56,533 nt of DNA from Candidatus Cloacimonadota bacterium (GTDB taxonomy: Bacteria > Cloacimonadota > Cloacimonadia > Cloacimonadales > TCS61). The notes under the pieces are model-generated. The model saw only the letters and a program-made list of their open reading frames with translations. It made no database searches and was not told the origin of the DNA. The stretch lies in NCBI GenBank assembly GCA_021736135.1, contig JAIPGO010000014.1:1-56533 (forward strand), in the 5' to 3' direction. This document shows, piece by piece, positions 21,405 through 46,992 of this stretch (position 1 is the stretch's first letter; every line of letters begins with the position of its first letter). The position numbers were made by a program, and so were the translations under genes.

Positions 21405-21445
21405 TTGAGAAAAAGAAAACGCCCCTCAGAAAACTGAGGGGCGTT
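21405..21445 (-). terminator. rho-independent terminator of the scaffoldin gene
   Basis: The stem AACGCCCCTCAG / CTGAGGGGCGTT (21418-21445) has an AAAA loop (TTTT on the minus strand) and is followed on the minus strand by TTTCTTTTTCT. It lies 18 bp after the stop of the 2334-residue gene and ends the five-gene secretion cluster. Confidence 0.85.
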
Positions 21446-21462: not shown

Positions 21463-24400
21463 TTATTTCATTAAGATCATTTTCTTGGTGCTGGAATAAC
21501 GATCTGACTTCATGTTGTAGAAGTAAACACCACTGGCTACATTCTGACCATGATCATTAGTTCCATTCCAAACGATATTGTGGAAGCCGGCATCCATATA
21601 CTCATTGACGAGTGTCCGCACGATCTGGCCACGCATATTGAAGATATTGATCTCCACGTTTGCATCTTCGGCGAGAGAAAGCTTTATAGCCGTCTCAGGA
21701 TTGAACGGGTTGGGGTAATTACCCTGCAGTGCCGTTACAGTGGGCAGAAGGTTATCATCATTATCAACCAGCCACGCATTTTCTATATCTGATTCTCCAT
21801 CATTATAAACAGCAGCAACACCATAGTGATGGTCACCGGTCATGTTCATGAAGATGTATGAAGTTTCATCTATATCAAGCATTTCATCATCATAAAGGAT
21901 GTCATCCAGATAAACGTAGAATCCAAGAAGGAATGAGCGTTCGTCACGGGTTGTAATGGCTGGTGCTCCCAGATTACCACAGGCGAATATATTATCTTCA
22001 GAAGTGAAGAAACTGGTTACTTCCGGAGTCTGAGGAGCTGAAGCAAGCGGCAATGCGCGAGCAGCGCCAGCAACCCAGGCTTGAATGTTCCAGTTGTAAT
22101 CAAGCCCAAATCCACTAAGAGGATCCCATGAAACACCGCCATTCTGAGATATCATATCACCAAATCCGGCAATGGCAGGACCTGCATCACAACCGGCAGG
22201 ATATTCTCCAGCAGGCTGGGCATCGCAAGTGTAGCCAACCCAGAGTTCCAGTGAGGAATCTATAGTATATGGCGTTGTGTAATATATCTCATTCCAGGTC
22301 TCAGAAGTATAGTCAGTAATATTCTGACTAACCACTACGTTGGCAGCGTTTGCACCGGTCCAGATCTTGGCAACATGACCTGTAGTAATTCCACGTGGGA
22401 AGAAATTCATCTTTGTGATCTGCATTCCGTCATAATCATCAAGATCACCGGCAGCCCAACGGGCAGCAACAACAAATGAACCACCACTTGTGAGTCCTAT
22501 ACCGTCATCATTCATACCACTGTCATAATGAACCCATTCACCGGTTTCACCACCTATTTCAGGAGCTTCCCAGGTGAGTTGAACGAAAGCAGGATTAGTA
22601 AGATGAACAGCTTCTACATTGCCTGGTTCATCCTGCTGGACAGTGATGACAACAACATCAGAATCTGTATACTCACCGTCACTGACCTGCAGTGTAAATG
22701 AGTAATCCGTTTCATTAGTTATTTCCGGAGCAGTGAAAGTAGGCATGGCAACAGTTGTACTGCTTAATGTGATTCCTGCAGGAGCTGTCCAGAGATACGT
22801 AATCGGATCACCATCGGGATCGAAGGATGCAGAACCATTGAGAGTAACCTGCATTCCGTCACGCACGGTCTGATCGTTTCCGGCATCAGCAACAGGAGCC
22901 TGATTAGCAATATATGTGAAATCAAGGGTAACCATAGGAGAGAATCCTTCGTCATATACAGCAACCACTCCGGCTTCATAATCATTACCATCAATCAGAT
23001 CTTCGAACAGGAATTCTGTAACGGCAGCAGTAGTAGAACCAACCATTAATCCATCAAGATATACGTTGTAACCCGCAAGTTCACGGGAAGCACCCAGAGT
23101 TGGTGTGATAGTTACATCATCCAGATCCAGGTAGAACATATCAGTGCAGTTGAAATGACGGAAAGCAATGTAGCAAGCTCCACTGTAACCATCTATATCA
23201 ACAGTTCTTTCATACCAGGCGCCCTGAACGCGGGTTCCCTTGGGTATAATTCTTTCCACGCGACCGGTGCTACGAGCTGTCATCGTTTCTTCAAAGAGAA
23301 GATCGAAATCATCAGGATCAGTTCCAGAATCCGAGATATAAACGCCGTAATGTTCACCAGCCCAGGCTGCATCTTGAGCACAAACGAAATAGTTAACCGA
23401 ACCAGAGCCACTGAAAGTAACTGCTGGTGAAATCAGCCAGTTATCAGGATTAAGAGCTCCGATATCGTTAATATAAGAAGCGGAATAAGCCAGTCCGTCA
23501 CCCGTATGAGCATCAAGACCAAGTTCACCGCCGTCATCCCAGCCATAAGAATCGCCATCATCATCGACGAATACCCAGCCGGCAGGGGGCCATACTTCAA
23601 ATCCTTCTTCCAGAACGTCGCCACCGGCGGGAGAATTCCAGGTGAAGAGTGCCTCACCGTCATCCATGTTTTCCACTGCCAGGTTTGAAGGTGGATTGAG
23701 AGGAATTGTCACGTTCATAACAGTAATGGTCAAGTTATCAGTACCATTAAGGAAACCATCATTAACCGTGAGAGTCACGGTGTAATCAGTATCATCATTA
23801 ACATTCGGAAGGGTAACTACTGGAGTTGCTGAAGTTGGGTCATCAAAGGTAAGACCTGCACCCGTCCACATATAAGTGATCGGATCGCCATCCGGATCAT
23901 AGGAACCAGTTCCATCCAGAGTTACTGTCAGATTTTCCCACCAGCTTACGTCGTCACCGGCCATAGCAACAGGCGGCATATTGGGAGGAATAACCGTAAC
24001 AACAACTTCATCGGGATCAGAAGCGCCATCATTATCTGTAACTACCAGACTGAATGTATAATCCACCACCATTGTATTTTCAGGTGCTGTGAAAGTTGGC
24101 ATTATGACAGTTGTGCTGCTGAGAGTGATTCCAGCAGGAGCTGTCCAGGCATAAGTGAGAGCATCACCATTCATATCAAAGGAACCACTGCCATCGAGAG
24201 TCACAAAGTCACCACCAATTACGGATTGATCTTCACCGGCATCAGCAATCGGAACATACTGAATACCAACGTCATTGATCATTATCACTCCGTCATGCTG
24301 ATTTTCAGGCAGCATAAATGTGCTGTTATATTTGAATGCCCAGATATGGATATTGGTTTCGCCAATACCATGAGCCGTGAAGTTCAAGTAACAAATAGGA

Positions 24401-27400
24401 CCTTCGCCATCAAGTGGCTGATAGTGCATATATGCTATATTAACGAAACCTGGTTGGATTTCATTACCAAGAACCGTACCGGGGGCAAAAGTATTTTCAA
24501 CTGTGACATCGTTCCAGGAAAGGTAATTAGTGTCATAACTAAGGCTGCACTGGTAGGCAATTACATTCCAGGAAGGATCGACAACTGAAGAAGAGATGGC
24601 AACATCAAAATCCATACCATCATCTACAGTAAGACTTTCCACTGTTAATACCGAATTAAGAAAATCTACAACACTGACCATTACGTCATCGGAAGCAGAA
24701 ATTTCAGTATTACTAACTGTAAAGGTCATATTTTCCGACCCAATCCAGGTTGTACTGTTGAAAGTAACTTCAAAGCCGTCAATAATAACACCAATATTAC
24801 TGTTTCCCGTAACTTCAAGAGTTAAGGAAGCAGGATCAAGATTAGCATACAAAATATATTCTTCAAAGTCGATCATAACGGAAGATTCCGTTACCAGACT
24901 AAGCGTTTCCGGTAAATCAAATTCCAGAATCGGATCCGGCAACGTAACCACGATATCCACATCATCGAACGCCACATCGCGGGAATAGCCATCATCAACT
25001 GAGAAAGTTAAAGTTTCGGAACCAGTCCAGTCTGCAGGTGCACTAAATTCAACCATCAGATCAGTTATAGTTACCATTATATCTGTATTACCTGAGTAAT
25101 CAAGGACAAGATCATCTCCATCTACATCGTCAACATACATACTGAAATCAACTGTTAATGTTTCATTGGTGACAAAGTAGAAAGAATCCGGTAACTCGAT
25201 AGTGGGAGTATGATTGGGTAAGGGCTCTACATTAACCAGACCATCAACAAGGTTAGTCATATAGGTCTGATTATATTTAAATTCATAAATATCGAGAACA
25301 GTTGAGCCACCCATGCCGATAGCCTGGAATTCCAGGTTACAGAGTGTTCCAACTCCGGAAAGATTCAAATAATGAGCATAAGCCACACGAACATGACCAG
25401 GTGTTAGTTCATTGGCAATTATTGAACCACCATTAGGAACTTCACCCATGCTGAAGCCTTCGTAGGAAATTACTGCCGGATCAAAATCAAGATCGAACTG
25501 GAAAGCAATTACATTCCAGGATTCATCAATTGGTGATGTAGATACTGAAATCTCAAATTCTTCCAGTTCTATAACATCATCACTGCTGACAATGATCATG
25601 CTTTCTTCAAAAGTCCAGATATTCATGACGGTAACAACTACTTCATCGACCAGAGAATTCAGTTCTCCATCGTTAACCACGAGTGTGAAAGTGTATTCCA
25701 TGTCCATATCAACATCTGGAGCTGTGAAAGTAGGCATTACTGCTGTAGCATCATCAAGAGTAATTCCTGCTGGTGCAGTCCACAGATAAGTGAGAGGCAT
25801 CATTTCCGGATCGCTGGAAGCGCTGCCGTCAAGAGTTACCAGATCACCCTCATATACTGACTGGTCAACACCGGCATTCGCGCTGGGAGGAAGGTTGCCA
25901 CCGGTTTCCACGTGGAATTCAAAAGGAGTCAAGCCGTTTCCGATTACCATATCAGCAACAAAGTCCATAGTCTCGGTAACATCAAAGATCAAGTCCTGAC
26001 TGGCGTCATAATACTGGAAGGTAAGAGTTTCACCACTTGTTACGTTGCTAAAAATCATCGGCATAAAGGCGATGTGACCAAAAGGAATGGTGTAATCAAT
26101 TACACTGCCTTCGTCATAATTGGCAACACCACGGCATTCGCCATCAACGAAAGCACCCAGCCAGTCATTTACATCATTACAAGGAATGCCATTAATGGCA
26201 ACTGTTCCCCAGATAGAGCCATTATACTCATAATCATAGGGATTAACAGTCCATTCAGGAACTCGGTCGCGAGACTGTGTAGAAACACCTAAATCATTAT
26301 TAACCGGAGTTACGTTATTCACTACGGTACGGGCTGTAACGTCCGGAGCAGGATAATTAAACTGAGTAGGAATGCTCATATCCAGCATATAACCAGCCAG
26401 TGGAACCATATTATTCAGAGTACCAAACCAGCCCATCCCGGCATAGTAAGTAGAATATTGCGTCTGGCTCTTAATATAAGAACCGGCTCCATTCAAACCT
26501 TCAAGGGCATAAGAAGTGGCTTCCGGGACCTGTGGGGCATAAGAAATCCAGTTCCAGCCTGAAGAAAGGTTATAAATTGTATCATTAAGATCCACGGGAA
26601 TACCTGTATATTCAAAGGTAGTATTGTTTGATACGTCAAGTTTATAGAAAGTTGTATTATTGATAGTATTCAATGTACCAAACCAGCCCATACCGGCATA
26701 ATATGTGGCATACTGAGTCTGGCTTTTAATATAAGAAGCATCTCCGCCAACAGATGTAAGAACGCTGTTCACACTCATATCGTCACCAATAACATTCAAA
26801 GAAAGCCAGTTCCAGCCAGGAACCATGTTCTTGGTTACATCTACAGTATTAATCGTTGATGCATGGAATACAAAGGGATTCATACCGTTACCAACAACCA
26901 TGTCCGCAATAAATTCCATCGATTCTGCTACATTATATATAGCTTCTGTTTCAGCGTCAAAATAGTAGAAATCAAGCATTTCACCACTAGTAACATCACT
27001 GAAAATCATCGGCATAAATGCCACGTGTCCGAAGGGTGTAGTATAATCAATGATACTGCCGTTTGCCAGACTGGCAACACCGCGGCATTCATCGTCCACA
27101 AAGCAACCCAGCATACCGCTTGTTACTGTAACAGGAACATCATCGAGCTCTACGCGACCCCAGATTGAACCGTTATACTCGAAGGCATTGGGATTAACAG
27201 TCCAGTCAGGATACTGTACAGATGAGATCATTATACTGCCATCAATCAGGTTATTTAGATAGCTGGAATTATATTTGAAAAGGCTAAGTTCCAAAGCTGA
27301 ACTACCGGCAACATCTGCAATAAACGTGAGGTAACACAGATTGCCTTCTCCTGTAATGGGCATAACGTTTGCATAAGCAACTGAGATGACTCCTGGAGCA

Positions 27401-28467
27401 GATTCGTTAGCAATCAGGTTTCCCGGTCCTGGCACTTCACCAAGAGAGAAACTGTCGAAACTTAAAAGAGAATTATCAAATGTCAGGTTGAATTGGAATG
27501 ATATAGCACCCATTTCAGTAGTCAACAATGTTGTACTGACTGGAATTTCTACTCCTGCTCCAATAGCTGCATTAGCAGAACCGGCTGTGATGACTACATC
27601 TTCATAAGGATTATATGCAGCTACTTCCACATTTCCATTTACCAGGTTGTAAAGATATGTGGAATTATATTTAAATTCATTAAGATCAAGAACAGTGGTG
27701 CCGACACCAGCTCCACTGAAGGTGATATTGCAGAGTGTTCCTTCACCTGAGATAGGCATTACGTTGGCATAAGCAACAGATACTACACCAGGAGAGGATT
27801 CATTAGCTATCAGATTACCCGGATTAGGTACTGTTCCCATTGAAAAACTTTCATAAGAAAGCACTTCATCATCAAAAACCAGGTCAAACTGGAAGGAGAT
27901 TGCTCCCATATCCGTCGTTAACATTGTTGTTGTTATCGGAATAACAATATTGTTTCCGATAGTAGTGCTCCCAGATCCGGCTGTTATCACAACATCCTGA
28001 AATGGATTATAGACCGTAACCATTACATTGCCATCAATGAGATTGGCATTAGCCAGGTAAGTAGCATTATACTTGAATTGATTAAGATCAAGTACTGTGT
28101 TACCTTCATCGATAGCATTAAAATTAAGCGTGATAAGATCACCAATACCACTAATAGGCTGATAGTGGGCAAATGCCACTATTATATGACCTGGAGTGGG
28201 CTGATTAGCCAGCAGGCTTCCACTACCGGCTACAACTTCTCCGGCAATAAAGCCACTGTAACTAATGATCGTGGGATCAAAATCAAGATTAAACTGAAAG
28301 GCTGTGATATTCCAATCTTCTTCCAGTTCGGTCGTACTGATGGAAATTGCAAAATCATCTCCTGTATTCACAGCAGCGCTGGAACATGTGATGATTGAAT
28401 TTTCAAACTGACCGAAAAGTAGAGTTGCTATCAAAGCCAGGAAGACTGTTAATACAACTTTTTTCAT
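21463..28467 (-). CDS. scaffoldin-like protein with five cohesin-like modules, PKD and FlgD-like C-terminal sorting domain
   Basis: 2334 aa with signal peptide (residues 1-20). Cohesin-like modules lie at about 22-152, 156-285, 288-416, 954-1082 and 1270-1398. Each shows the pattern W/GxIxFQFxLxFD...ISY.GF..GEV, then ANE..PG...VAYA and a final F/L-FKYN. Other parts are a duplicated domain around GSIWG...ECRGVA (421-537 and 738-853), two repeats with SYIKSQTQY, four PKD domains (about 858-948, 1404-1490, 1492-1580, 1852-1940), a cleaved-adhesin-like region as in gingipain haemagglutinins, and a FlgD-like C-terminus with NYPNPFNPETAI (from about 2245). It has no dockerin of its own. It probably serves as the surface scaffold for the dockerin proteins encoded just upstream. 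AAGGAG lies 11 nt before the ATG. Confidence 0.75.
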   Translation of the reverse strand: MKKVVLTVFLALIATLLFGQFENSIITCSSAAVNTGDDFAISISTTELEEDWNITAFQFNLDFDPTIISYSGFIAGEVVAGSGSLLANQPTPGHIIVAFAHYQPISGIGDLITLNFNAIDEGNTVLDLNQFKYNATYLANANLIDGNVMVTVYNPFQDVVITAGSGSTTIGNNIVIPITTTMLTTDMGAISFQFDLVFDDEVLSYESFSMGTVPNPGNLIANESSPGVVSVAYANVMPISGEGTLCNITFSGAGVGTTVLDLNEFKYNSTYLYNLVNGNVEVAAYNPYEDVVITAGSANAAIGAGVEIPVSTTLLTTEMGAISFQFNLTFDNSLLSFDSFSLGEVPGPGNLIANESAPGVISVAYANVMPITGEGNLCYLTFIADVAGSSALELSLFKYNSSYLNNLIDGSIMISSVQYPDWTVNPNAFEYNGSIWGRVELDDVPVTVTSGMLGCFVDDECRGVASLANGSIIDYTTPFGHVAFMPMIFSDVTSGEMLDFYYFDAETEAIYNVAESMEFIADMVVGNGMNPFVFHASTINTVDVTKNMVPGWNWLSLNVIGDDMSVNSVLTSVGGDASYIKSQTQYATYYAGMGWFGTLNTINNTTFYKLDVSNNTTFEYTGIPVDLNDTIYNLSSGWNWISYAPQVPEATSYALEGLNGAGSYIKSQTQYSTYYAGMGWFGTLNNMVPLAGYMLDMSIPTQFNYPAPDVTARTVVNNVTPVNNDLGVSTQSRDRVPEWTVNPYDYEYNGSIWGTVAINGIPCNDVNDWLGAFVDGECRGVANYDEGSVIDYTIPFGHIAFMPMIFSNVTSGETLTFQYYDASQDLIFDVTETMDFVADMVIGNGLTPFEFHVETGGNLPPSANAGVDQSVYEGDLVTLDGSASSDPEMMPLTYLWTAPAGITLDDATAVMPTFTAPDVDMDMEYTFTLVVNDGELNSLVDEVVVTVMNIWTFEESMIIVSSDDVIELEEFEISVSTSPIDESWNVIAFQFDLDFDPAVISYEGFSMGEVPNGGSIIANELTPGHVRVAYAHYLNLSGVGTLCNLEFQAIGMGGSTVLDIYEFKYNQTYMTNLVDGLVNVEPLPNHTPTIELPDSFYFVTNETLTVDFSMYVDDVDGDDLVLDYSGNTDIMVTITDLMVEFSAPADWTGSETLTFSVDDGYSRDVAFDDVDIVVTLPDPILEFDLPETLSLVTESSVMIDFEEYILYANLDPASLTLEVTGNSNIGVIIDGFEVTFNSTTWIGSENMTFTVSNTEISASDDVMVSVVDFLNSVLTVESLTVDDGMDFDVAISSSVVDPSWNVIAYQCSLSYDTNYLSWNDVTVENTFAPGTVLGNEIQPGFVNIAYMHYQPLDGEGPICYLNFTAHGIGETNIHIWAFKYNSTFMLPENQHDGVIMINDVGIQYVPIADAGEDQSVIGGDFVTLDGSGSFDMNGDALTYAWTAPAGITLSSTTVIMPTFTAPENTMVVDYTFSLVVTDNDGASDPDEVVVTVIPPNMPPVAMAGDDVSWWENLTVTLDGTGSYDPDGDPITYMWTGAGLTFDDPTSATPVVTLPNVNDDTDYTVTLTVNDGFLNGTDNLTITVMNVTIPLNPPSNLAVENMDDGEALFTWNSPAGGDVLEEGFEVWPPAGWVFVDDDGDSYGWDDGGELGLDAHTGDGLAYSASYINDIGALNPDNWLISPAVTFSGSGSVNYFVCAQDAAWAGEHYGVYISDSGTDPDDFDLLFEETMTARSTGRVERIIPKGTRVQGAWYERTVDIDGYSGACYIAFRHFNCTDMFYLDLDDVTITPTLGASRELAGYNVYLDGLMVGSTTAAVTEFLFEDLIDGNDYEAGVVAVYDEGFSPMVTLDFTYIANQAPVADAGNDQTVRDGMQVTLNGSASFDPDGDPITYLWTAPAGITLSSTTVAMPTFTAPEITNETDYSFTLQVSDGEYTDSDVVVITVQQDEPGNVEAVHLTNPAFVQLTWEAPEIGGETGEWVHYDSGMNDDGIGLTSGGSFVVAARWAAGDLDDYDGMQITKMNFFPRGITTGHVAKIWTGANAANVVVSQNITDYTSETWNEIYYTTPYTIDSSLELWVGYTCDAQPAGEYPAGCDAGPAIAGFGDMISQNGGVSWDPLSGFGLDYNWNIQAWVAGAARALPLASAPQTPEVTSFFTSEDNIFACGNLGAPAITTRDERSFLLGFYVYLDDILYDDEMLDIDETSYIFMNMTGDHHYGVAAVYNDGESDIENAWLVDNDDNLLPTVTALQGNYPNPFNPETAIKLSLAEDANVEINIFNMRGQIVRTLVNEYMDAGFHNIVWNGTNDHGQNVASGVYFYNMKSDRYSSTKKMILMK

Positions 28468-28527
28468 AGATTAATACTCCTTCTTCTTACAAAATTTCTT
28501 TTTTTATTATTCATTATTTATTATTTA

Positions 28528-28560
28528 TGGCAGGAACAGAACGTAATCCTGTTCCTGCCA
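28528..28560 (-). terminator. hairpin between lamin-tail protein and scaffoldin genes
   Basis: A 12-bp perfect stem TGGCAGGAACAG / CTGTTCCTGCCA, 10 bp after the stop of the upstream gene. The sequence after it on the minus strand is AT-rich but has no U-run, so it may only attenuate or protect the transcript and give the scaffoldin gene a separate level. Confidence 0.45.
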
Positions 28561-28570
28561 GATATTAATT

Positions 28571-31500
28571 CTATTTCAACATCAGCATTTTATTCATGCT
28601 GTTCAATTCACCGATCTGTGCCCGGTAGAAATAAACACCACTGCCGACAGAAGAACCTCTATTATCTGAACCATTCCATAGCAGGTTGTGATTTCCATAA
28701 TCCAGATCGCCATCAAACAGAGTTTTTACTAACTGGCCTTTGATGTTATATATATCAACCTTAACGCTGGTGGCATCATTAGCAACTGCCAGTCTGATAT
28801 TGGTGACAGGATTGAATGGATTCGGGTAATTCCCCAGAACCGCATTAGCTGTAATAACATTATTTATTTCCAGATCCTGCATATTGATTTCTTTTTCGCT
28901 GCTAACACCATTTATTGTTAATTCCACTACGAATGAACCTTCAACTGCCATTGCTTCGTAAGGTAAGCTGACTATTTCACCACTTAACTGATATGCGCTG
29001 GCTAAAGCTAAAGCAAACCCGTCCGGATTTACTGAACTCGTTGCATCTTTATTGACCACTGGAGTTCCGATATTGATCAGATCACTATTAATTTTGATTA
29101 CGGCACTATATAATTCGCCATCAGCCTGGAAGTTCAAGGTATTTCCAATAACTTTCACCTTAAGATCTGCTACGGGATTAGAGGTCCTGAGCAATTCTAC
29201 CGGGAATACATCTATCAGATCAACGCTATACTGCAGGACAAGGGCAGCGTCATAAGCTTCCACAAATAGATTTCCATCAACGTCTCCAGCTATTAACTGC
29301 CAGGTCCAGGGTAAAGGTGCTCCTATTGGATTAAGCTGAACAGCAAACTGCAGCATATTGGCTGCATCAAAAGCATCCACTGACCAGTCACCTGTTACAT
29401 CACCATAAAGCCAGTCTGGACCTGTCACCAGGTCTTCAGCAAAACGTGGTGTTAATTCAAACAGATTATAACTGTAATTAACAACTCCAGTCACTGAAAC
29501 AAATTCATCTCCAACTAAAGCGTCAACATGATAGATGGAATCATCTGCCTGACATTCGCCAGTGCCGTCATCCAGATACCATTCACCATAACTATTGGTT
29601 TCCTGAGTAACAATTACATCCTGAACCTGTACCAGTACGCTTTCCCAGGCTTCTTCAGAACTCAACTGAAGAGTTGTGATTACGGTTGGCGCTGGTATCG
29701 GATTACCGCTGCTTACTACTACAAAACCTGTGATCTCGTAAATCTCTGTAAGACCATAATATTCGGAAATAAGTCCCGTAATTATAATCTCGTCTCCCAT
29801 GACTGGGGTGTGATCAGGATCATATGCGTAAAGCCCGTTGAAAGCGCCACCTTCCGGTGTGCTGATCCAGTATTTATTCGATCCGGTTGCTGTTACTATT
29901 CCCTGAGTACTCACTATCTGACCAGCATAAGGAGATATATCTGTCTCATCAATGGGAGTCTGAATTTCCGGAATTGTAACCATTATCAGATCATTCCAGT
30001 AAATTTCAGGAAGTATTTGTGTCATACCTGCATCATCAATGGTGAACACACGGTTATCAACACTTTCCCATACCCAATCACTTGCACCATCGGCAAGCAT
30101 GGCAAATTTATATTCCACTTCCAGAATTGAACCTTCCGGGAATAGGAGATCAATGGAATAAGTGTCACGCATAGGAACCAGAAGATTTACTCCGGGATCC
30201 CAGCTTAAGGGAGCTACACTTCCCTGAATGGAGATTCCTCCAGCAAATAATGCCGGATCAACATATTCCATATTCAATATAAATGTAACCGTAACATCCT
30301 GGGTAGTAAACTCAGGAGGTTCCTGATCATTGAACCAGCAGTCAAAAACGTTTTCACCATCGAAAACCGTATAAGTTCTGTTATCGCCACCAGGAAATTC
30401 TGCCAGATCCCAGTTCCCGTCAATGCGGAACTTGAATTCGCAGCCATATCCCAGAGGTAACATCGTTGTCATTGTATAAATCCCGTCTTCATCAAGGTCA
30501 TCGCCAATTATTGGCACGGCACCCCATTCGTTGAAATTAGCCCCTAGATCCACAAAATTTACTCCGGGAACAAAAGCACCCAGGGTTATCTGATAATTCA
30601 TATTTACGTTAAATGTAACTTCAAATTCAGGAGCTTCACCATGGTAGCCCAGATATTCAAAAGTATTCTGCGGATATACTTCCCATTCACCGTCATCTGC
30701 ATTGGTTCCTGCTGCAGCCAGCCAGTCAGTATTTCCGGCTGTTACAAATCCTTTCCGAACCAGAGTATGATCTTTTGTTGCGGTAGTAACACCAGCTACA
30801 TCCCAGCCGTCTCCGGGATCATTATTCGGGTCACCAATAATATCTATCAATACCCAGTTCTCTCCATCAAGAGAATATTCCAATCCACGGGCGTCATCAC
30901 CATTATGATGAACCACGCTCGGATATGATAAAAATTCATCTGCATTTAAGGGATCAAAGAAATCAGGACTTGTTCCATCATTTAATATAACCCAGACGTC
31001 TCCATCTTCCAGCATAGCGCCTTCCGGGAAGATGTGCCAATATGCCCAGCCACCACCATTTACGGCCTGCGCTATACGGTAATGAGCAAGATCAACGGTC
31101 TCACCTGTGCCATTGTATATTTCCATAGCCTTGTTATTTGAAGAACCTTCAATATATTCACTGAAGATCATTCCACTCTGAACCGGGAACCAGTCATTAA
31201 AGAGAACAGTTGGTAATACTGTATCCACATCAGGAACTGTCAAAGTGCGGTTAGTCCATTCATCATTGCCCCAGGCATTACCATTTACGTATTTATATTC
31301 ATGATATGCACCAGATAGTAAAACTAATGTAACCGTATAAATCCCGTCCAAATCATCATCAAACATTTCCGTTGCTGCCGGATCCCAGCCCTGGAAACTA
31401 CCGGCGATATGCACGCCATCGGGTGAAACTACTTGATATTGCATATCTACTGCAAAGGTGATATTGACATCCTCTGGAGGTGCAGCATTAACCGTTAAAT

Positions 31501-33250: not shown

Positions 33251-33362
33251 AAAAAAACCCTCCTGTTAATATTTCTTACTTTACAATTATCGCTTCTCAC
33301 TGGTAATATTCCTTTCCAAGAAGCTCGGAGCCAAAACTCCGAAAGTAAACTTTCATCTTTCA

Positions 33363-38030: not shown

Positions 38031-38042
38031 ATAGCTCACCTT

Positions 38043-41000
38043 TTATGGAGTTTTCTTATCAGGAATACTTTTTCTTTGATCTGTTTCTTCTGTTTTCAGC
38101 CTGTTATTAATGGAACGGGAGGAGCTGTTACCCCCTGTTCGACGCATACTATTCTCTACAGGGAACACATCTATTATTCCCACAAAGTATTGCAATATCA
38201 AAGAGGCATCATAAGATTCCACTGCCCCGTTACCATCCACATCTGCTGCCATTATTCTGATCAATTCCCAGGGTATGGGATCGATTAATGGAATTGGATC
38301 CATGCCCACAAAATACTGCAGACATATTGAGGCGTCATAAGCTTCCACTGCTCCATTACTGTCCACATCACCATAATTAACCACCTGACCTCCGACATTC
38401 AGATCAACCGGTATGATTAAACTCGACATATTGGGATCATTCGTCGTCAAAAGAAGATTGCATATATATGCTCCCAAAATAAGATCTGAAGTATCTACGG
38501 TCAAGGTGATCTGCTGGTTTTCTCCACTTCCCACAAGTCCCGCTGTCTGTGAAATATCAAGCCAGTCAATAATTCGCATAAATTCTATTGCCATATCTTC
38601 ATGCAGATAATAACCATTATATGAAACCATCAAGGCAATAACCCCATTCTCATCTTGAATACCAATAGTATTGGTGTCAATATCGCCGGCAAGAGTATGA
38701 TACTGAAATTTTATGCCGCCAGTATTGTTGATTATCATTTCAAAATCATAAGTACCATTGTATTGTCCGGCATAATGCTCCACTTGATGGAACATTACAA
38801 TCAATTCTGTTCCATCACTGTAGTAATAAACCTCTCCACCACCGTTACCACCAATCTCCGGATGCAGATCATCCCAGAAAGGGAACAATGCCGGTTTGGG
38901 AGAATCAGGATTTGGCAGACTCGTGTTTGCCCATCCCGGATTATCTGCCCCAAATCCTATCCAGCCGTTAGGATTGATAAGGAATTGTGTATATTCCTCC
39001 CCATAAAAATTGAAGGAAAATCCTATATCCATCAATTCAGTCCCGGTATCGTTGCCTGAAAAACTAACCTGCGAACCATAACTGCTGATATCTATCCAGT
39101 TATATTCAGGTCCTCCCGGTTCATCGCTGTCGCTCCAAAGATAGCCATACCCATCCGGTCCCCCGCTTTCCCGGCTGCTTTGATAATCTTTGCTGAGATT
39201 AAATACCAGACTGGATTCTCCGGAATTGCCTATTTCCAGAAAATCGTAACTCACTTCACCGGGTTGCAGTATAAACTGGAATTCCTCCGTATTCAGCACG
39301 GCAGCAGGTGGCTCAAGTATTGCAGGAGAATTCGTTGTGATCAATAATGCCATCCCATCTTCCAGAGATCTGGCAGCGTCCGGATATGTATTATTGTAGG
39401 TATATTCCAGCCCTATCTCTCCTGTATGATCCTCAATCCCAACCGTGCAGTACTGACCATGATCTGCTCTGTAATAACCACTGTTTACATTATTTATATC
39501 ATTATACATTATCAGGATGTCACTGTCACCTGTCTGGCTCGGATAGAATACAGGATTCCTGATTATCATCTGGAAGGTTTCCAGAGCATTATTATATTCA
39601 TTCTGCAATCTTGACCATTCGATGATATATTGATGATTAGCGCTGTCATTATAATAACAGATATTGCCAGAAGTACATTTTAAATCATCCCAGAACGCTG
39701 CTATCATTGGTGAAGGACCTCCGGGTCCCGGAACATGCCAGTTCATAAAACCTGTCTGTTCTGTCACTCCCGGTGCTGCCCAGCCATTAGTACATATTGT
39801 TATCTGATTATAATCCACACCATAAAACTGCATAATAAATGGTAAATTGAGGGTGGTGATAGCACCAGTGTCTCCCGGCTCGTAAAGTCCGGTATCTGTC
39901 CCCGGACCACCATAGGCAGGATCTATTTCAAGCCAGTTGTAACTCGGAACTAAGCTATATTCATCGTCTTCGTCATCATATATATAATATCCATAAGCGT
40001 CTGCTCCCAGTGGATCTGTTTCGTTCACAACTCCTATAGAAATTAAAAAACTTGTACTCGTGCTGTAACCGTCTGCTGTAATTTGCAGCATCACGGGTAT
40101 CTGGCTACCCGGCAATATCTGGCTGTCAGCAGATAATTCAAACCTATTGCCGTTATTATTACCGGTTCCTCCCATTACTATATTACCAAAACTTCCCAAT
40201 CCATCAATGACCGTCAGACGGTTGTCGTTACAGGTCAATTCCGCCATTACACTGTAAGCTGGCAGATCGCCAAGATTATTCAAGGTTATATAAACCTGAG
40301 CTGTTTCTCCCGGATCAAGTATTGCATTACCACCAGATACTGTATAATGGTCATAATCAAGCATTGGCCCGCTTATCTCCAGCTCAAGGGCGTCAATCCA
40401 ACCATCTCCCGTCGCTGAAATATCCATAGAACATAATATGCCTATTCCTCCAGGAGTATTCTCTGCAATTTCAACGATATACGCAGAAGGAGCTTCTACA
40501 GTCTCTCCCGCATTGATTGTGCCAAAATTTACTGATGAACTGGTTATCAAGATATAGGGAGAGGATGATCTCATGATCATATTTACATTGTTTTGAGTAG
40601 TTGTTCCATAATTATGCATATTAATCCATAATTCCACCGTTTCTCCCGGATTACATATTTCATCTCCATTCCCGTTGGAATTACCAAAATTGTCATCATC
40701 AATTTCCATAGATTCCACCGTAACCAAACTCACTGTATTTCCTATCGTCAATATTCCCTGGTAGGGCAGGCAATCATGGCCAGTTACCGTTACCGTTACT
40801 TCACCCGCTATTAATTCATTCAAAGCAACAAAAACGCTGCCATTGGCATCTGTAAAACCATAAGAACTATGAGTGCTTTGCAATAGAGATACACAGGCGC
40901 CTGGAACCCCTTGACCAGATATCAGACTCACGTTTACTTCCAGAAAATCAAGCCCGGTATTTACTTCTTCCTCATAATTAACCTCGATTGCCCGCGGTAT

Positions 41001-42701
41001 ATCTGTATATAACTCCAGCCCCGGATCTCCCATCAGGTTGTTCCAGTGAGAAAATATATTGACTGCATTGCTCGGATTCTGAGGATAATTCATATATAGA
41101 TTTAATTTTCCCCTTACCAGTGCTCCGCCCATACTGAAAATATCGTCGTTGAATATTCCGTGAAAGATCCCGATCGTGACGCAATTATTAAAACAGGTGT
41201 GTGTTCCCGATGTGGCAGTGCCTATAGCGCCTATTGCGCCTTTCGGAGTGGTTGCTGTTCCTGCTTTGGCAAAATATTCACTCCGGCAGTTTGTTCCGGA
41301 AAATCCTCCTGTTCCGCAGGTTAATATCGAAGCAAATGGCAGCATAAAACCATTGTTCAATGAGTTGATATCTGTTGTGTCCCAACCGCTCATGCCAATA
41401 TAACCTCGATAACACATAAAGCCCACGCCGGCATTGATCCCGGCATTCATCAATCCGTCATAATCACCACTGTAAACTTCGTTGAATTGAAAACTCGCAT
41501 CATAATCTAATATAGTTTCTTTTACTGCTTTACAAGTGTTTATTGTGGACTGACCTGATGAGGAAGGATCCCCTACCAGTAACGCCCGACGATACCAGGT
41601 CGTATTTGACATTAAAGGTGTTGATTCATATCCTATTATCTTGGAGATCAAGGTCTGAAGCTCAGATGTATTATTAAATGAAAGACGGCCAATCATAACA
41701 TCAGCCAGCACGTCGGTCCCATCCAGTTGCGAATAAGGATGATCACCTTCTCCATTGTAACCCGACCAGTTCTCAAACCAGGTTGGTATTGCATAGGTTC
41801 CATTAGCATCACCAACCAGGCAAACGTAATCAGGCGGATTTTCCCATGTATTATAGGCAGATTGAATATAATTCTTGATTGATGTGGTACTTGTGCCTGT
41901 ATGTGAGGTGTTGACGCTGTGTACCTCAAAACCTTTCTCCTCTTTCCAGTCTGTTAAATAAGTCAGGTAACTCGCTACTGTTGTATTATTCGGCGCTATA
42001 AAAAGATAACAGGACTGCTGGTATTCGGGATCACGTTCCCTGATCTGATCATAGTTAATGATCACAGACCGGTAGATCGGCTCAAATGCTTTGGATAACT
42101 TTCTGTCCCCTCTGGAGTTGAAACCGCCTTCTGCGCTCAGGTTCACCCGCAGGGAAGTTATAATTCGTAACTCACGGCTACCGGGATTATACTGAAAGGG
42201 CTGAACTGTAAAGTTTACCACATGAAAATCACGTAAAACTGCTTCTTCCCCGATCATAACCAGGCTGCCGGGAAATTCCACATCAGAATTATAAAAATCC
42301 TCATCTATAATAAATGACTCACCACCACCCTCATTATCACTTAGTAATTCACCCTGAGGATATAGCAATATATCAGTGATCACTATTTCTTCATATTCAA
42401 TAATATTCCATTTAACATCACTTTCTGCCGGTATTGCCACTAATCTGGAAAATAGCGGAATATCCGGCTTGCCGGGGACCATTAATTCTCCACCTGTCGG
42501 ATGTGTTAATAACTGCCATTTTATACCATCCCGATCAATTGATTCCAGATCATAGCCATCAAGAGTGAATTCGATCTCTGTTGTTGTCAGATTAGAATTC
42601 AAACTCTGTAATAATTCATCCGTTGTATCCCCTGTCTTTACCCATGCTGCTGATAATCCATATAATGAAATTAAAATCAAAACCACCAAAAATCTCTTCA
42701 C
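38043..42701 (-). CDS. C25 (gingipain) family protein, His-to-Tyr variant, C-terminal dockerin (paralog)
   Basis: 1552 aa with a GTG start; GGGAGG lies 4 nt upstream. Same architecture as its downstream neighbour: signal peptide (1-18), pro-domain, C25-like domain, Ig-like domains, two WDDL modules, dockerin (about 1443-1515; DVDSNGAVEAYD and DVDGNGAVESYD) and a charged tail without sorting domain. The expected catalytic His reads YRGYIGMSGW (Tyr434); Cys462 is kept (LTCGTGG). Both paralogs share a conserved GTHT-FNN segment about 40 residues after the Cys, with a His that could substitute. The C-terminal third is the most similar part of the pair, which points to tandem duplication. Confidence 0.75.
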   Translation of the reverse strand: MKRFLVVLILISLYGLSAAWVKTGDTTDELLQSLNSNLTTTEIEFTLDGYDLESIDRDGIKWQLLTHPTGGELMVPGKPDIPLFSRLVAIPAESDVKWNIIEYEEIVITDILLYPQGELLSDNEGGGESFIIDEDFYNSDVEFPGSLVMIGEEAVLRDFHVVNFTVQPFQYNPGSRELRIITSLRVNLSAEGGFNSRGDRKLSKAFEPIYRSVIINYDQIRERDPEYQQSCYLFIAPNNTTVASYLTYLTDWKEEKGFEVHSVNTSHTGTSTTSIKNYIQSAYNTWENPPDYVCLVGDANGTYAIPTWFENWSGYNGEGDHPYSQLDGTDVLADVMIGRLSFNNTSELQTLISKIIGYESTPLMSNTTWYRRALLVGDPSSSGQSTINTCKAVKETILDYDASFQFNEVYSGDYDGLMNAGINAGVGFMCYRGYIGMSGWDTTDINSLNNGFMLPFASILTCGTGGFSGTNCRSEYFAKAGTATTPKGAIGAIGTATSGTHTCFNNCVTIGIFHGIFNDDIFSMGGALVRGKLNLYMNYPQNPSNAVNIFSHWNNLMGDPGLELYTDIPRAIEVNYEEEVNTGLDFLEVNVSLISGQGVPGACVSLLQSTHSSYGFTDANGSVFVALNELIAGEVTVTVTGHDCLPYQGILTIGNTVSLVTVESMEIDDDNFGNSNGNGDEICNPGETVELWINMHNYGTTTQNNVNMIMRSSSPYILITSSSVNFGTINAGETVEAPSAYIVEIAENTPGGIGILCSMDISATGDGWIDALELEISGPMLDYDHYTVSGGNAILDPGETAQVYITLNNLGDLPAYSVMAELTCNDNRLTVIDGLGSFGNIVMGGTGNNNGNRFELSADSQILPGSQIPVMLQITADGYSTSTSFLISIGVVNETDPLGADAYGYYIYDDEDDEYSLVPSYNWLEIDPAYGGPGTDTGLYEPGDTGAITTLNLPFIMQFYGVDYNQITICTNGWAAPGVTEQTGFMNWHVPGPGGPSPMIAAFWDDLKCTSGNICYYNDSANHQYIIEWSRLQNEYNNALETFQMIIRNPVFYPSQTGDSDILIMYNDINNVNSGYYRADHGQYCTVGIEDHTGEIGLEYTYNNTYPDAARSLEDGMALLITTNSPAILEPPAAVLNTEEFQFILQPGEVSYDFLEIGNSGESSLVFNLSKDYQSSRESGGPDGYGYLWSDSDEPGGPEYNWIDISSYGSQVSFSGNDTGTELMDIGFSFNFYGEEYTQFLINPNGWIGFGADNPGWANTSLPNPDSPKPALFPFWDDLHPEIGGNGGGEVYYYSDGTELIVMFHQVEHYAGQYNGTYDFEMIINNTGGIKFQYHTLAGDIDTNTIGIQDENGVIALMVSYNGYYLHEDMAIEFMRIIDWLDISQTAGLVGSGENQQITLTVDTSDLILGAYICNLLLTTNDPNMSSLIIPVDLNVGGQVVNYGDVDSNGAVEAYDASICLQYFVGMDPIPLIDPIPWELIRIMAADVDGNGAVESYDASLILQYFVGIIDVFPVENSMRRTGGNSSSRSINNRLKTEETDQRKSIPDKKTP

Positions 42702-42750
42702 AAAGCCTCCCTGACTGCGGGACTGGTTGTTACCAGCCCCGCTGAATTTT

Positions 42751-45700
42751 TTATTTTATAAGCACTAATTTATGACTCTCAGTACTGCCTTTTGTTCGCA
42801 TCAGACAGATATAAGTTCCGCTGGCAGCTATTTCTCCCGCTTCATCACAGCCATTCCAGGCTAATTTATGATAGCCCTCCGTTTGTGTGCCGTTAAATAG
42901 CTGAGTGATCTTCTGCCCCCGTAAATTATATATGGCTATCTCTACTTCTCCTGCTTCGGCCAGAGTGTATTCAATCGTTGTGGCAGGATTGAAAGGATTA
43001 GGATAATTGCCGGTTATTAATGATTTTGCCGGCACTGCCGGGTAACTGTCACCCAATAATATGGTCTTCCGGTCTTCTCTGTCATTGATCCTGATATATA
43101 CATCCACCTCGCATCTGCCGGTTATTCCCTCAATTGGGATTCGCATAAAAGCCGCACCTGTTTCCAGGGGCTCTGCACTCGCTGCCGCATACCGGTAGAT
43201 GTTGTTATTATTATTCCAGGCAAAAAGTGCCCCTTCGATTACTGCCGGTTCTCCAGGAATAATATCTGTGCTGCGGATCATTAATTCAACTCCAAATATC
43301 TCACCCTGAGCAAATAGTTCCAGCCAGTTCTCGCCGTCTATGATACTTGCTCTCAAATCCACATCTCCGACTGGCACTTCAGATATTCTGCCCGTCTCGG
43401 CAGGGAATTCTGTGATCAAGCCAACCACATATTGCAGGATCAATCCGGCATCATATGCCTCCACGCTGCCATTCCCATCCACATCTGCCCTGAGTATCCG
43501 CCATTCTTCCCAGGGTAATGGTGCCCCCTGAGGGTCTAATCCTACTGCATACTGCAGCAGTATCGAACTGTCAAAAGACTCCACATATCCATTATCATCT
43601 ATATCTCCATATACTATTGTATTCATTCCCACATAAAGAGTCACAGGGATAACCAGTGAATAGTTACCACCTATTACCGAAATATCTGCGCTAAAGATAC
43701 CTGCGGCCAGACCGCTCGTATCAAAGCTCAATGCATGAATTGCTGTATCTCCTCCAGTCAAAGTTCCGCTTGATTCTTCAATGCTGATCCAGGTTAAAGG
43801 ATTACCATTGCTGCTGATATTGATCGTCCCGGCTACTGTATGAGGAGCGTTACCATAATCATCTCCCGTCAGCTCCCAGTTTAGTTCCACATCACCTATG
43901 AAACCGGTCATAATACTCACATTCACCGTTGCCGTAGCCGTCTCCCCATTCTGCAGATACCCCCAGCCACTGGAAGTTTCCCCATGCCAGTTGCCGGCTG
44001 CACCATTTCCCGTCTCTCCCAGAAACTCCAGTTCATCGCTTCCTCCAATGAAATCCGTTGCACTGTTTACAATGATCCCTTCCGGAAAATCAATTACTAT
44101 ATCCTTTATCCATTCCAAGTCCACGCTGTTATTAGTGCAGGAAAATGTCCAGTCAACGGTCTCTCCCGCCGTGAAACTCAAAGCATCACAAGTCACGGTT
44201 GATCCTGCGATGCTGCGTTCTCCTGTTGTGTCCGTGATGAATATTGTATAATCTATTTCACCGGTATAATTGTTGTTTTTTATTTCAAACTCACTGCTGC
44301 CTGTCGTCTCTGGATCAAGAGAAAGTTCCACTTCCTCAGTCAGACTTGTCAATCCTGCTTCTGCAACCCCAAACTCGCCTACTGTAAAATTCCAGATCTC
44401 TTCTCCCGCTGTTGCCGTGATCATAAAGGTTAAGGGAACACCATTCAGCATATCATCAGTCAGTAAAAAGCTGAAGCAGTTATCCAGGGTTGCATTTCCC
44501 CCTGCCGGGATACCAGCTCTAATTTCGCTGCCGTCGCTTATTTCTACAAATTCACTGTCACAGATCAATTCCAGAACCAGTTCTTCCGAGGCTTCTGTAC
44601 CTACATTAAAAAGTGTAATTCCCATACTGGCAAATTCACCCGCTTCCAGTATATCGTCATTGCCCGATAATATCTCATAACCCAGCATCTGGATAAATGC
44701 TCCGCCATCAAGCACTAATTCCACCTCTTCAATTTCAGTTATTTTATTATATCCCGTAATTGTCAGGGTCAAAGTTGTTGGTTCTTCAGGTAATGCTCCG
44801 AGAAAAAGAGTTGCTATGCCATCTATTCCACTGTATGCCTGTGAGATCAGTTCTCCCTCGAGACTCAGGCAAACCTGAGCTCCTGCAAAACCAGTGTCCA
44901 CAGTGTAACTCTCCTGCATATTCATTAAAGTCGGGCTAAAGATTGCCTCTATCGCCTCAGGTGTCATTGTCCGCACCTGTAATGATGGATCCCCAAATAT
45001 ATGCCAGGTGCGGGCCATGGCAGTATCATTACTCTCATCGATCATATATGATACGCCATTGAACCATAATCCGCCTATCGTATTTAACTCATCAGCACAC
45101 ATCAAATCTATTGTTTCATCCTGAGCATACATCGGAGGTGCCCAGCTTTGATTGATCGAGGAGGCAAACATCGCTATTGCTCCCGTGGGTGCATCTCCAT
45201 TCGTTGCCCTAAGCCACGCTTCCGCAAAACAGGTTGTGTTCGTGAAATTGCCATTGACGCAGGCTATCGATTGAATAAAGGGCAGCATATAATCATTAGT
45301 TAAAGCATTTACGTATGTATTATTGAAGCCTGTTGTGCTCCAGGATGTATTACTTCCATGTCCGCAGTAATTGATGATTCCTCTGCCCTCATTGAGTGCA
45401 TTAGCCACCATCGTGGCATTACCGCCATTAGTGTCATATATCTCATCAACAAGCAGATATCCGTAATCCAGAAGATCATCCCGTATATAGCCCATGTGCA
45501 CATAATCTGCTTCACCGTAATGCCCTTGACCATTTCCCTGCGATGAGGCTATGCCAATGCCTTTCTGCATCCAGTCTCCATCTGTTATATCACGCTCGTA
45601 ATATACTGAACGCTCAGCCTGCGTTGCCGCCTGTTCACCTGTTACTGCGGAGAATCTGCCTATAAATATTTCCGAATAATAATCCCCACCTTCCAGATAT

Positions 45701-46650
45701 GTATATTGCGGGTCACCTCCCGCTCCTGAATAAAGCTCACTTGCCACCTGCGCATTATCTCCAACCAGAAGAACCCAGACCAGCCCGTCTCCGGCATTAT
45801 ACTCTGAAAAAATATAATTCTGGATACTCGTGGAATTATTTCCTATCGTTGACACATCAACTATCGTGGTCTCTATCCCTTTCTGGTTTTTCCAGTCTAC
45901 AAAAGGCTGCATCTCATCCATAAAATCACCATAACTGATGATCAGCATCCTGCCTGCTTCTTCTTCAATGGTGTCATAACGATTGAGCTCAAAATTTAAA
46001 AAATGCTTCGCATATATATCGGTAAAATTCCGGTTTATTCCCTCTGTTGTGCGTTCTTTTACGTTAGTTGTCGAAATTCCGGTTTCACTCACCACTATTG
46101 TCATATTTGTATAAAAACGTAACACTCCTGTTACAGCATTATAACAAAAAGGATTGATCCGGATGTTCACACCACGGTAGTCACGTAGAATATAAGGTTC
46201 GCTTAATTCCGCCCTCTGTTCCGGCCAGTTTTTATCCTGCTCATAGATGTCTCCAAAAATATAAGGCACTTCTTCCGGATTGATCTCGCGAGACAATATC
46301 CCTTTAGAGGGGGCAACTGCTATCTCAAATTCCACATATTCACTTGCCGTTACTTCTACCGTCACGCTGCTTCTATCCGCTATGATCAGAGATCTGTGGA
46401 TTACGGGCAGAGATGCAAATCCTTGCTCACGCACCTCCGATTCACCTTCTATATATACTTTTTGCCAAATATCCCCATCAATTTCTGTTTCCTGAATTTC
46501 AAAACTTCCTGCCTCATAATTCAGATAGATTTCTCCTTCCTGTTCTCCCGTCACTTCCACTTTCAGCGCCTGCTCATTTGCAGAAATCGTTAATGCCGTA
46601 AGACTCGTCAGCATGATTAATGCCAACAGTGTAAAACCCATTTTTCTCAT
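42751..46650 (-). CDS. gingipain-like C25 cysteine peptidase with dockerin and FlgD-like C-terminus
   Basis: 1299 aa from ATG 46650 (GGAGG just upstream); a TTG at 46662 overlaps that ribosome site. A signal peptide and pro-domain come first, then the C25 domain with NYCGHGSNTSWSTT (His431) and SIACVNGNF (Cys464). The 33-residue spacing equals that of RgpB (His211/Cys244), so it should be active. Ig-like domains follow, then a dockerin (about 1014-1085; DIDDNGYVESFD and DVDGNGSVEAYD), another beta domain and the sorting domain with NYPNPFNPATTIEYTL. It is the first gene of the minus-strand secretion cluster. It probably degrades extracellular protein, as expected for amino-acid-fermenting relatives. 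Whether it cuts at Arg or Lys cannot be told. Confidence 0.85.
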   Translation of the reverse strand: MRKMGFTLLALIMLTSLTALTISANEQALKVEVTGEQEGEIYLNYEAGSFEIQETEIDGDIWQKVYIEGESEVREQGFASLPVIHRSLIIADRSSVTVEVTASEYVEFEIAVAPSKGILSREINPEEVPYIFGDIYEQDKNWPEQRAELSEPYILRDYRGVNIRINPFCYNAVTGVLRFYTNMTIVVSETGISTTNVKERTTEGINRNFTDIYAKHFLNFELNRYDTIEEEAGRMLIISYGDFMDEMQPFVDWKNQKGIETTIVDVSTIGNNSTSIQNYIFSEYNAGDGLVWVLLVGDNAQVASELYSGAGGDPQYTYLEGGDYYSEIFIGRFSAVTGEQAATQAERSVYYERDITDGDWMQKGIGIASSQGNGQGHYGEADYVHMGYIRDDLLDYGYLLVDEIYDTNGGNATMVANALNEGRGIINYCGHGSNTSWSTTGFNNTYVNALTNDYMLPFIQSIACVNGNFTNTTCFAEAWLRATNGDAPTGAIAMFASSINQSWAPPMYAQDETIDLMCADELNTIGGLWFNGVSYMIDESNDTAMARTWHIFGDPSLQVRTMTPEAIEAIFSPTLMNMQESYTVDTGFAGAQVCLSLEGELISQAYSGIDGIATLFLGALPEEPTTLTLTITGYNKITEIEEVELVLDGGAFIQMLGYEILSGNDDILEAGEFASMGITLFNVGTEASEELVLELICDSEFVEISDGSEIRAGIPAGGNATLDNCFSFLLTDDMLNGVPLTFMITATAGEEIWNFTVGEFGVAEAGLTSLTEEVELSLDPETTGSSEFEIKNNNYTGEIDYTIFITDTTGERSIAGSTVTCDALSFTAGETVDWTFSCTNNSVDLEWIKDIVIDFPEGIIVNSATDFIGGSDELEFLGETGNGAAGNWHGETSSGWGYLQNGETATATVNVSIMTGFIGDVELNWELTGDDYGNAPHTVAGTINISSNGNPLTWISIEESSGTLTGGDTAIHALSFDTSGLAAGIFSADISVIGGNYSLVIPVTLYVGMNTIVYGDIDDNGYVESFDSSILLQYAVGLDPQGAPLPWEEWRILRADVDGNGSVEAYDAGLILQYVVGLITEFPAETGRISEVPVGDVDLRASIIDGENWLELFAQGEIFGVELMIRSTDIIPGEPAVIEGALFAWNNNNNIYRYAAASAEPLETGAAFMRIPIEGITGRCEVDVYIRINDREDRKTILLGDSYPAVPAKSLITGNYPNPFNPATTIEYTLAEAGEVEIAIYNLRGQKITQLFNGTQTEGYHKLAWNGCDEAGEIAASGTYICLMRTKGSTESHKLVLIK

Positions 46651-46992
46651 TATATCCTCCAAACTTTACTTTTTCTTATAATTCATATTTATATAAGCAA
46701 TTTTTATTCCTATTTCTGCCAAACCTCTCGTTTTTTCAGTATTTCCCTCGCCTTTTTTACTAACTATTCCGCTCCTCTTAGTTTAAATCCCGCTATTTCT
46801 TCTTCCTGTTTTTTGAAATCCTTTTCCTATGCTGCTTTTCAAGCATAATGCCCCTTTTCGTCACAGTAACTCTGCCCATAAAATGGTCAATATTCTTTTT
46901 CAGTGAAAAATCCTTTGACAGTTTTCTTCTCACATTACTTATTCCGGTCAGTAGCTGATTTGACTACAAAATCAAAAGCCGGAAGGTAAATA
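46651..46992. other. divergent intergenic region (C25 operon / ppx)
   Basis: AT-rich, pyrimidine-rich on the plus strand. TTGACA at 46915-46920 could be the -35 of the rightward ppx gene, but the expected -10 (46938-46943) is poor. The leftward promoter of the secretion cluster should lie here; AT-rich stretches at 46670-46710 would fit but I cannot single one out. No gene is evident. Confidence 0.4.

Follow-up and report, generated by a model that had tools for sequence, protein, structure and literature searches.

A five-gene cohesin-dockerin locus as a probable branch of a genome-wide, peptidase-weighted system in a Cloacimonadales bacterium

The window analysed here, a stretch of 56,533 nucleotides from a Candidatus Cloacimonadota bacterium, corresponds to contig C123; the genome to which it belongs (labelled G000) totals 4.14 Mb in 148 contigs and is 98% complete. 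It contains a locus of five minus-strand open reading frames (ORFs) encoding a cohesin-bearing scaffold protein (P0001) and four dockerin-bearing proteins upstream of it (P0002 to P0005). The ORFs cover positions 21463-46662, are separated by intergenic gaps of 103, 112, 3 and 49 bases, and may be co-transcribed. A terminator-like stem-loop of 12 pairs with a T-rich tail (21418-21445, minus strand) lies directly past the stop codon of the scaffold gene, and a divergent Ppx/GppA-type gene precedes the run. A promoter scan upstream of P0005 revealed no sigma-70-like site; the organism may use other promoters.

The scaffold P0001 (2334 aa; 21463-28467) has a signal peptide-like N-terminus, five cohesins, PKD domains, a Cleaved_Adhesin domain and a type A C-terminal sorting domain (CTD) of the type IX secretion system (T9SS; Por_Secre_tail/FlgD_ig, 21466-21720, minus strand). 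A first-pass annotation, made from the letters of the DNA, had described a 2334-residue protein with five cohesin-like modules, and its coordinates and count proved right: PF00963 (Cohesin) matched five stretches of P0001 with an E-value of 2.6e-30 (105.9 bits, the gathering score being 24.1). Cohesins 1 (aa 25-150; 28018-28395), 2 (aa 160-282; 27622-27990), 3 (aa 292-414; 27226-27594) and 5 (aa 1273-1397; 24277-24651) were detected by both a local profile and PF00963, while cohesin 4 (aa 958-1080; 25228-25596) was detected by the local profile, its PF00963 score of 23.0 bits falling just below the cut-off; all five lie on the minus strand. The profile seeded from P0001 and iterated over the fetched ORFs found these five modules again, with E<=3e-42, a value that is circular because the modules themselves were its seeds. 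When a profile was built from the five P0001 cohesins and one from another contig, it matched cellulosomal cohesins of known structure, 6kgc scoring best (E=2.4e-4). A profile was needed for this, since a single-sequence search of the PDB with three cohesins gave no match.

All four upstream proteins, likewise encoded on the minus strand, carry a dockerin. P0002 (1559 aa; 28571-33250) combines lamin-tail domains and a CBM20-like match with a dockerin (29213-29407), a cohesin-like module here called X (28832-29212) and a CTD (28574-28831); a Pfam scan found no peptidase domain in it. P0003 (1558 aa; 33363-38039, likely start 38030) and P0004 (1552 aa; 38043-42701) both have a C25 propeptide, a C25 domain (36339-37304 and 41010-42008, respectively), a dockerin (33486-33689 and 38172-38375) and no CTD. 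P0005 (1303 aa; 42751-46662, likely start 46650) contains a gingipain R-like C25 domain (44977-45948), a dockerin (43414-43611), an X module (43009-43413) and a CTD (42754-43008). The Pfam scan placed both Peptidase_C25 and Propeptide_C25 on P0003, P0004 and P0005, bearing out the earlier assignment of three of the four upstream proteins to the gingipain family. In the protein scan PF00404 (Dockerin_1) matched P0003 (9e-7), P0004 (4.2e-8) and P0005 (1.8e-5); for P0002 the E-value was 4e-4 and the score of 21.0 bits lay just below the 22.9-bit cut-off, rising above it (25.5 bits) in the genome search. Searches with PF00963 and PF00404, which the first-pass annotation had suggested as a check, thus returned cohesins on P0001 and dockerins on all four upstream proteins, and the dockerins of P0005 and P0004 also matched solved dockerins (4uyp/4uyq). 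All four are two-repeat dockerins, as had been noted. The claim of complete calcium loops is fair for P0003 to P0005; the first loop of P0002 is less canonical (DVTGDWSVDAFD).

The three C25 proteins differ at their active sites. P0005 aligns with the catalytic domain of RgpB (4ief) at E=4.9e-92, with the RgpB His and Cys kept (His435 and Cys468). Also conserved in this alignment is the GESD/GEAD segment, which in RgpB contains the S1 Asp163, and Arg specificity is predicted for P0005 on that basis; P0005, which has a CTD of its own, is likely to be an active protease of the Arg-gingipain type. In P0003 and P0004 the alignment has Tyr in the column of the catalytic His, and the Cys is kept. 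The Tyr is a trait of the whole subfamily to which they belong, and P0004 had matches in 59 of the 59 genomes searched. P0003 and P0004 belong to a His-less C25 subfamily and carry a dockerin as their only tail; they are C25-like proteins for which catalysis is doubtful. A pair of adjacent C25-dockerin genes resembling P0005/P0004, one His-containing with a CTD and one His-less without, was also seen on contig C78 (L096:2100-12480; L-numbers denote fetched ORF stretches on other contigs).

The nearest named match to the window is Candidatus Stygibacter frigidus (67% identity); Ca. Stygibacter is placed by NCBI in the Cloacimonadota, Cloacimonadales. The gene order P0005-P0004-P0002-scaffold is kept in genome G019 at 60-75% identity and, within the limits of their contigs, in both G004 and Ca. 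S. frigidus, one C25 gene being the exception to order conservation with Candidatus Stygibacter. The window's genome bears the genus label g1, and G004, G019 and G026 the label g5; all are of the same family.

Genome-wide inventories were built from fetched contig stretches. Pfam models (E<=0.001) gave 26 cohesins and 47 dockerins in the window's genome, and the local profiles 36 cohesins and 54 dockerin ORFs, half of them (27) with a CTD and 27 without. A search for further dockerin proteins had been proposed in the first-pass annotation, and it was productive: 50 of the 54 dockerin ORFs lie outside the window, and they are of the same dockerin type. Asp occupies loop positions 1 and 12 of repeat 1 in 54/54 and 54/54 dockerins, and the corresponding positions of repeat 2 in 53/54 and 54/54. 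The recognition dyads are near-uniform ([AS][YF] in both repeats) and an LPWEEWR-like linker is common to most of the 54; the dockerins of this genome look like a single recognition type. A second scaffold, L110, which bears eight cohesins and a CTD, is encoded on another contig, and a CTD ends every complete ORF with at least two cohesins among those examined.

The proteins carrying the dockerins were surveyed by a Pfam scan of 50 of the 54 ORFs, namely the four in the window and 46 of the 50 outside it (L091, a fragment, L092, L097 and L100 were left out). A peptidase family was recognised on 14 of these, window included (ten C25, two S8 and two M14). Further cargo comprised one homologue of the peptidylarginine deiminase PPAD, GH18, GH57, endonuclease I and CotH, and the remaining ORFs mostly showed beta-helix, PKD or other non-catalytic architectures, or had no informative match. 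No cellulase or hemicellulase with a dockerin was found among the 50 ORFs scanned, GH18 and GH57 being the only clear glycoside hydrolases. The system is peptidase-weighted yet mixed. The PPAD homologue (L070:3522-5147, G000:C56) matches 6i0x at E=2.2e-125 and has a C-terminal dockerin, and the M14 enzyme L085 matches basic-residue carboxypeptidases (1h8l, E=5.5e-48). One C10 streptopain/interpain-like peptidase (L112:3595-7356, G000:C7) has two cohesins and a CTD, an enzyme doubling as a small scaffold. PPAD is usually discussed for Porphyromonas. PPAD-like matches (E<=1e-30) occurred in 51 of 59 related genomes, which would make PPAD-type deiminases widespread in the Cloacimonadales. Across these 59 genomes, most of which have 0-3 dockerins and few cohesins, the counts of cohesins and dockerins were correlated (Spearman 0.72), although the p-value of this correlation is not independent evidence because the genomes are related. 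Chance similarity as an explanation was rejected on the E-values, the conserved gene order and the co-occurrence of cohesins and dockerins.

Comparison of homologues revealed a difference in their tails. P0004 homologues have a terminal dockerin in G000, G004, G019 and G026; in all 11 other Cloacimonadales genomes examined, and in one Neomarinimicrobiota, the tail is a CTD. The M14 enzyme has a dockerin end in the same genomes (4/4), with 14 CTD ends and five cases with neither tail elsewhere. The PPAD homologue again has the dockerin in these four (4/4), and elsewhere ∼19 have a CTD, one a dockerin only (G002) and one both (G038). In the tree of His-less C25 proteins, well-supported branches force at least three changes of dockerin state, and the PPAD tree has adjoining dockerin and CTD clades whose members come from the same genomes. 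The trees show that dockerin and CTD states interchange, and several secreted enzymes appear to have exchanged a secretion/anchoring tail for a dockerin; the change presumably ran from CTD to dockerin, the CTD being the more widely distributed state. P0003 shares 69% identity over ∼1180 residues with a CTD-tailed paralogue of the same genome (contig C69), beyond which the two diverge. A frameshift or assembly fault as the cause of the missing CTDs was judged unlikely, the same dockerin end being present in several genomes. New relative to the literature searched is that C25-like, M14 and PPAD-like proteins are dockerin-ended here and mostly CTD-ended in relatives with few cohesins; a CTD-dockerin tail difference between homologues was not found described in that literature, absence there being no proof.

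The whole is best explained if the five-gene locus is one branch of a genome-wide, outer-surface cohesin-dockerin system of this Cloacimonadales bacterium, a reading that we consider likely. P0001 would be exported and attached by the T9SS via its CTD. As befits T9SS cargo, it has a type A CTD and the genome a gene for the SprA translocon (466.7 bits, cut-off 200); PorV-family genes are present too, and together with SprA they give the CTD-tailed scaffolds a plausible route. The five cohesins of P0001 would then capture dockerin proteins through one broadly shared, probably Ca-dependent dockerin type. Since some enzymes have a dockerin where their homologues have a T9SS CTD, the CTD-tailed cohesin carriers probably supply anchoring in trans. 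The cleanest case for this is a mini-locus in which the CTD-less PPAD-dockerin gene adjoins a mono-cohesin gene and a cohesin-PKD-CTD gene; a dockerin and two cohesin matches are likewise adjacent in G019, G004 and G026. The system as a whole probably degrades particulate protein plus chitin, alpha-glucan and nucleic acid. A bolder form of this reading is put forward tentatively: docking might replace the T9SS signal in cis, CTD-less enzymes being exported, or at least attached, only via CTD-bearing cohesin proteins, such that one sorting signal serves several enzymes. If true, T9SS cargo would be handled here in a modular way, with a signal shared between enzymes.

Several observations weigh against an outer-surface system of this kind. 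Dockerins (54) outnumber cohesins (36), and G002, of the same family (genus label g3; 96% complete), has 21 dockerins and 2-3 cohesins. The genomes with dockerin tails (g1 and g5) are close relatives, so the tail differences of the M14 and PPAD enzymes may each be one event, and the PPAD case fits duplication followed by a change of tail better than exchange in a strict orthologue. As 27 dockerin proteins have their own CTD, dockerins must serve for more than anchoring in trans. We know of no T9SS path across the outer membrane for CTD-less enzymes, and the genome also holds a GspD-like secretin (E=1.1e-52) and a GspE-like ATPase (581 bits), both on contig C72 and both below the curated cut-off. 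These two genes would suit a different export route, in which dockerin-only enzymes leave the periplasm by type II-like secretion and join the scaffold once outside, instead of passing through the T9SS bound to a CTD-cohesin protein; a crude check for a hydrophobic N-terminus, passed by 51 of the 54 dockerin ORFs, agrees with it. Against this, the two matches, below their cut-offs, may belong to type IV pili, and 56 of 59 relatives have the secretin, among them the genomes in which the homologues retain a CTD. Such a route is a real possibility, but falls short of being the probable one. A further reading confines the complex to the window. The first-pass annotation had seen in this one locus a multi-enzyme proteolytic complex built on C25 peptidases, and part of this stood: a CTD-tailed multi-cohesin scaffold does lie beside co-directional C25-dockerin genes, in an order kept in Stygibacter, and the system is peptidase-weighted. 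A self-contained complex 'built on C25' is not supported, however, given the 50 dockerin ORFs of the same type elsewhere, the eight-cohesin scaffold on another contig, the lack of the catalytic His in P0003 and P0004 and the lack of a peptidase domain in the P0002 scan. A dedicated complex formed by the locus alone, with the scaffold and three active gingipain-like peptidases, is very improbable.

For the CTD-bearing dockerin proteins an intramolecular pairing of dockerin and X module is a serious rival. The dockerins of P0002, P0005 and 25 others would pack on their own X module, forming a Ca-stabilised stalk before the CTD, and only C-terminal dockerins would join the scaffold. In these 27 of the 54 dockerin ORFs the order is dockerin, spacer, CTD, the spacer measuring ∼110-140 aa in nearly all (the X module itself is ∼125 residues long, and one protein has a 483-residue spacer). 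The X module aligned in register with the local cohesin profile in HHalign (probability 27%, E=7e-4), a weak match, although two control comparisons gave less than 1%. When a modelled dockerin-X-CTD segment was searched with Foldseek, the best hit was the cohesin-FnIII construct 2w1n (E=1.9e-8), and the cohesin-like 2jh2 reached a TM-score of 0.56 to the target. L115 has a Pfam-level cohesin at the X position, and the scarcity of cohesins and dockerins in most relatives also agrees with a stalk. The AlphaFold model of the segment provided a usable X fold but no placement of the dockerin (mean pLDDT 57, dockerin below 50) and is thus uninformative on dockerin-X contacts, and the dockerins of both architectures are alike in sequence, with no sign of differing recognition residues. 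Serious as it is, we regard this pairing as unlikely on balance. Another alternative concerns catalysis: P0003, P0004 and their subfamily might still be enzymes in which the catalytic His has been relocated, Cys462 acting with a near-invariant His501. Cys462, Arg432, Asn505 and Asn506 are conserved without exception among 29 aligned RGY-type C25 proteins, and 28 of these have His501, a column in which P0005 has Trp. A conserved Cys, however, is no proof of catalysis, and an AlphaFold model of the propeptide-C25 part of P0004 (7 sequences) does not inform on a relocated His because its pLDDT around the active site is below 50, which makes the predicted geometry unreliable. This relocation, too, is considered unlikely.

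As a kind of complex, such a cohesin-dockerin system has already been proposed for Ca. Stygibacter; the planctosome and clostridial cellulosomes are further relatives. The Ca. Stygibacter proposal, put forward in 2021 (Williams et al. 2021, PMC8542988), is of a complex resembling a cellulosome, in which dockerins are borne by C25 and S8 peptidases and by GH18 and GH57 enzymes. As far as the available part of that report goes, the two systems share their phylum, C-terminal dockerins on GH18, GH57, S8 and C25 proteins, a large CTD-bearing cohesin scaffold and a presumed part in breaking down protein and polysaccharides. The counterparts here are L073 (GH18), L071 (GH57), L076 (S8), P0003/P0004 (C25) and the scaffold L110. 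The same part of the report does not describe the second scaffold locus seen here or the order of its genes, the subfamily of His-less C25 proteins, the PPAD, M14 and C10 components, proteins built as dockerin-X-CTD or the CTD-dockerin tail difference; the present genome also has a different genus label (g1). The planctosome of Planctomycetes (Andrei et al. 2019, PMC6461901), a cohesin-dockerin complex with a proposed role in degrading peptides, resembles the present system in that role, in its M14 carboxypeptidases and in a lamin-tail protein. It differs in its host group, anchor and adaptor, and neither C25 nor a T9SS CTD is described in the portion of that paper available.

With the clostridial cellulosome the system shares a multi-cohesin scaffold and two-repeat F-hand dockerins on diverse enzymes, 4uyp/4uyq being scaffoldin-adaptor dockerins. 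A multi-cohesin scaffold with a surface anchor, as in a cellulosome, is represented by P0001 (five cohesins and a CTD) and L110 (eight and a CTD), the anchor being predicted. Unlike the cellulosome, the anchor here is a T9SS CTD, the cargo is peptidase-weighted, and no cellulase occurs among the scanned dockerin proteins. P0005, L070 and L085 are homologous to T9SS cargo of Porphyromonas gingivalis (RgpB, PPAD and a basic carboxypeptidase, respectively), and CTD-type sorting domains are common to both; the PPAD and M14 homologues here have a terminal dockerin in place of the CTD, whereas P0005 has both. The inventory provides an annotated, testable account of a peptidase-weighted cohesin-dockerin system in the Cloacimonadota, and the tail differences supply defined protein pairs for asking whether a T9SS-anchored scaffold can carry enzymes that have no T9SS signal.

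Elsewhere in the window, positions 1664-4129 (plus strand) hold an 821-aa ORF that unusually combines 4Fe-4S binding matches close to each end with intervening fibronectin type III domains.

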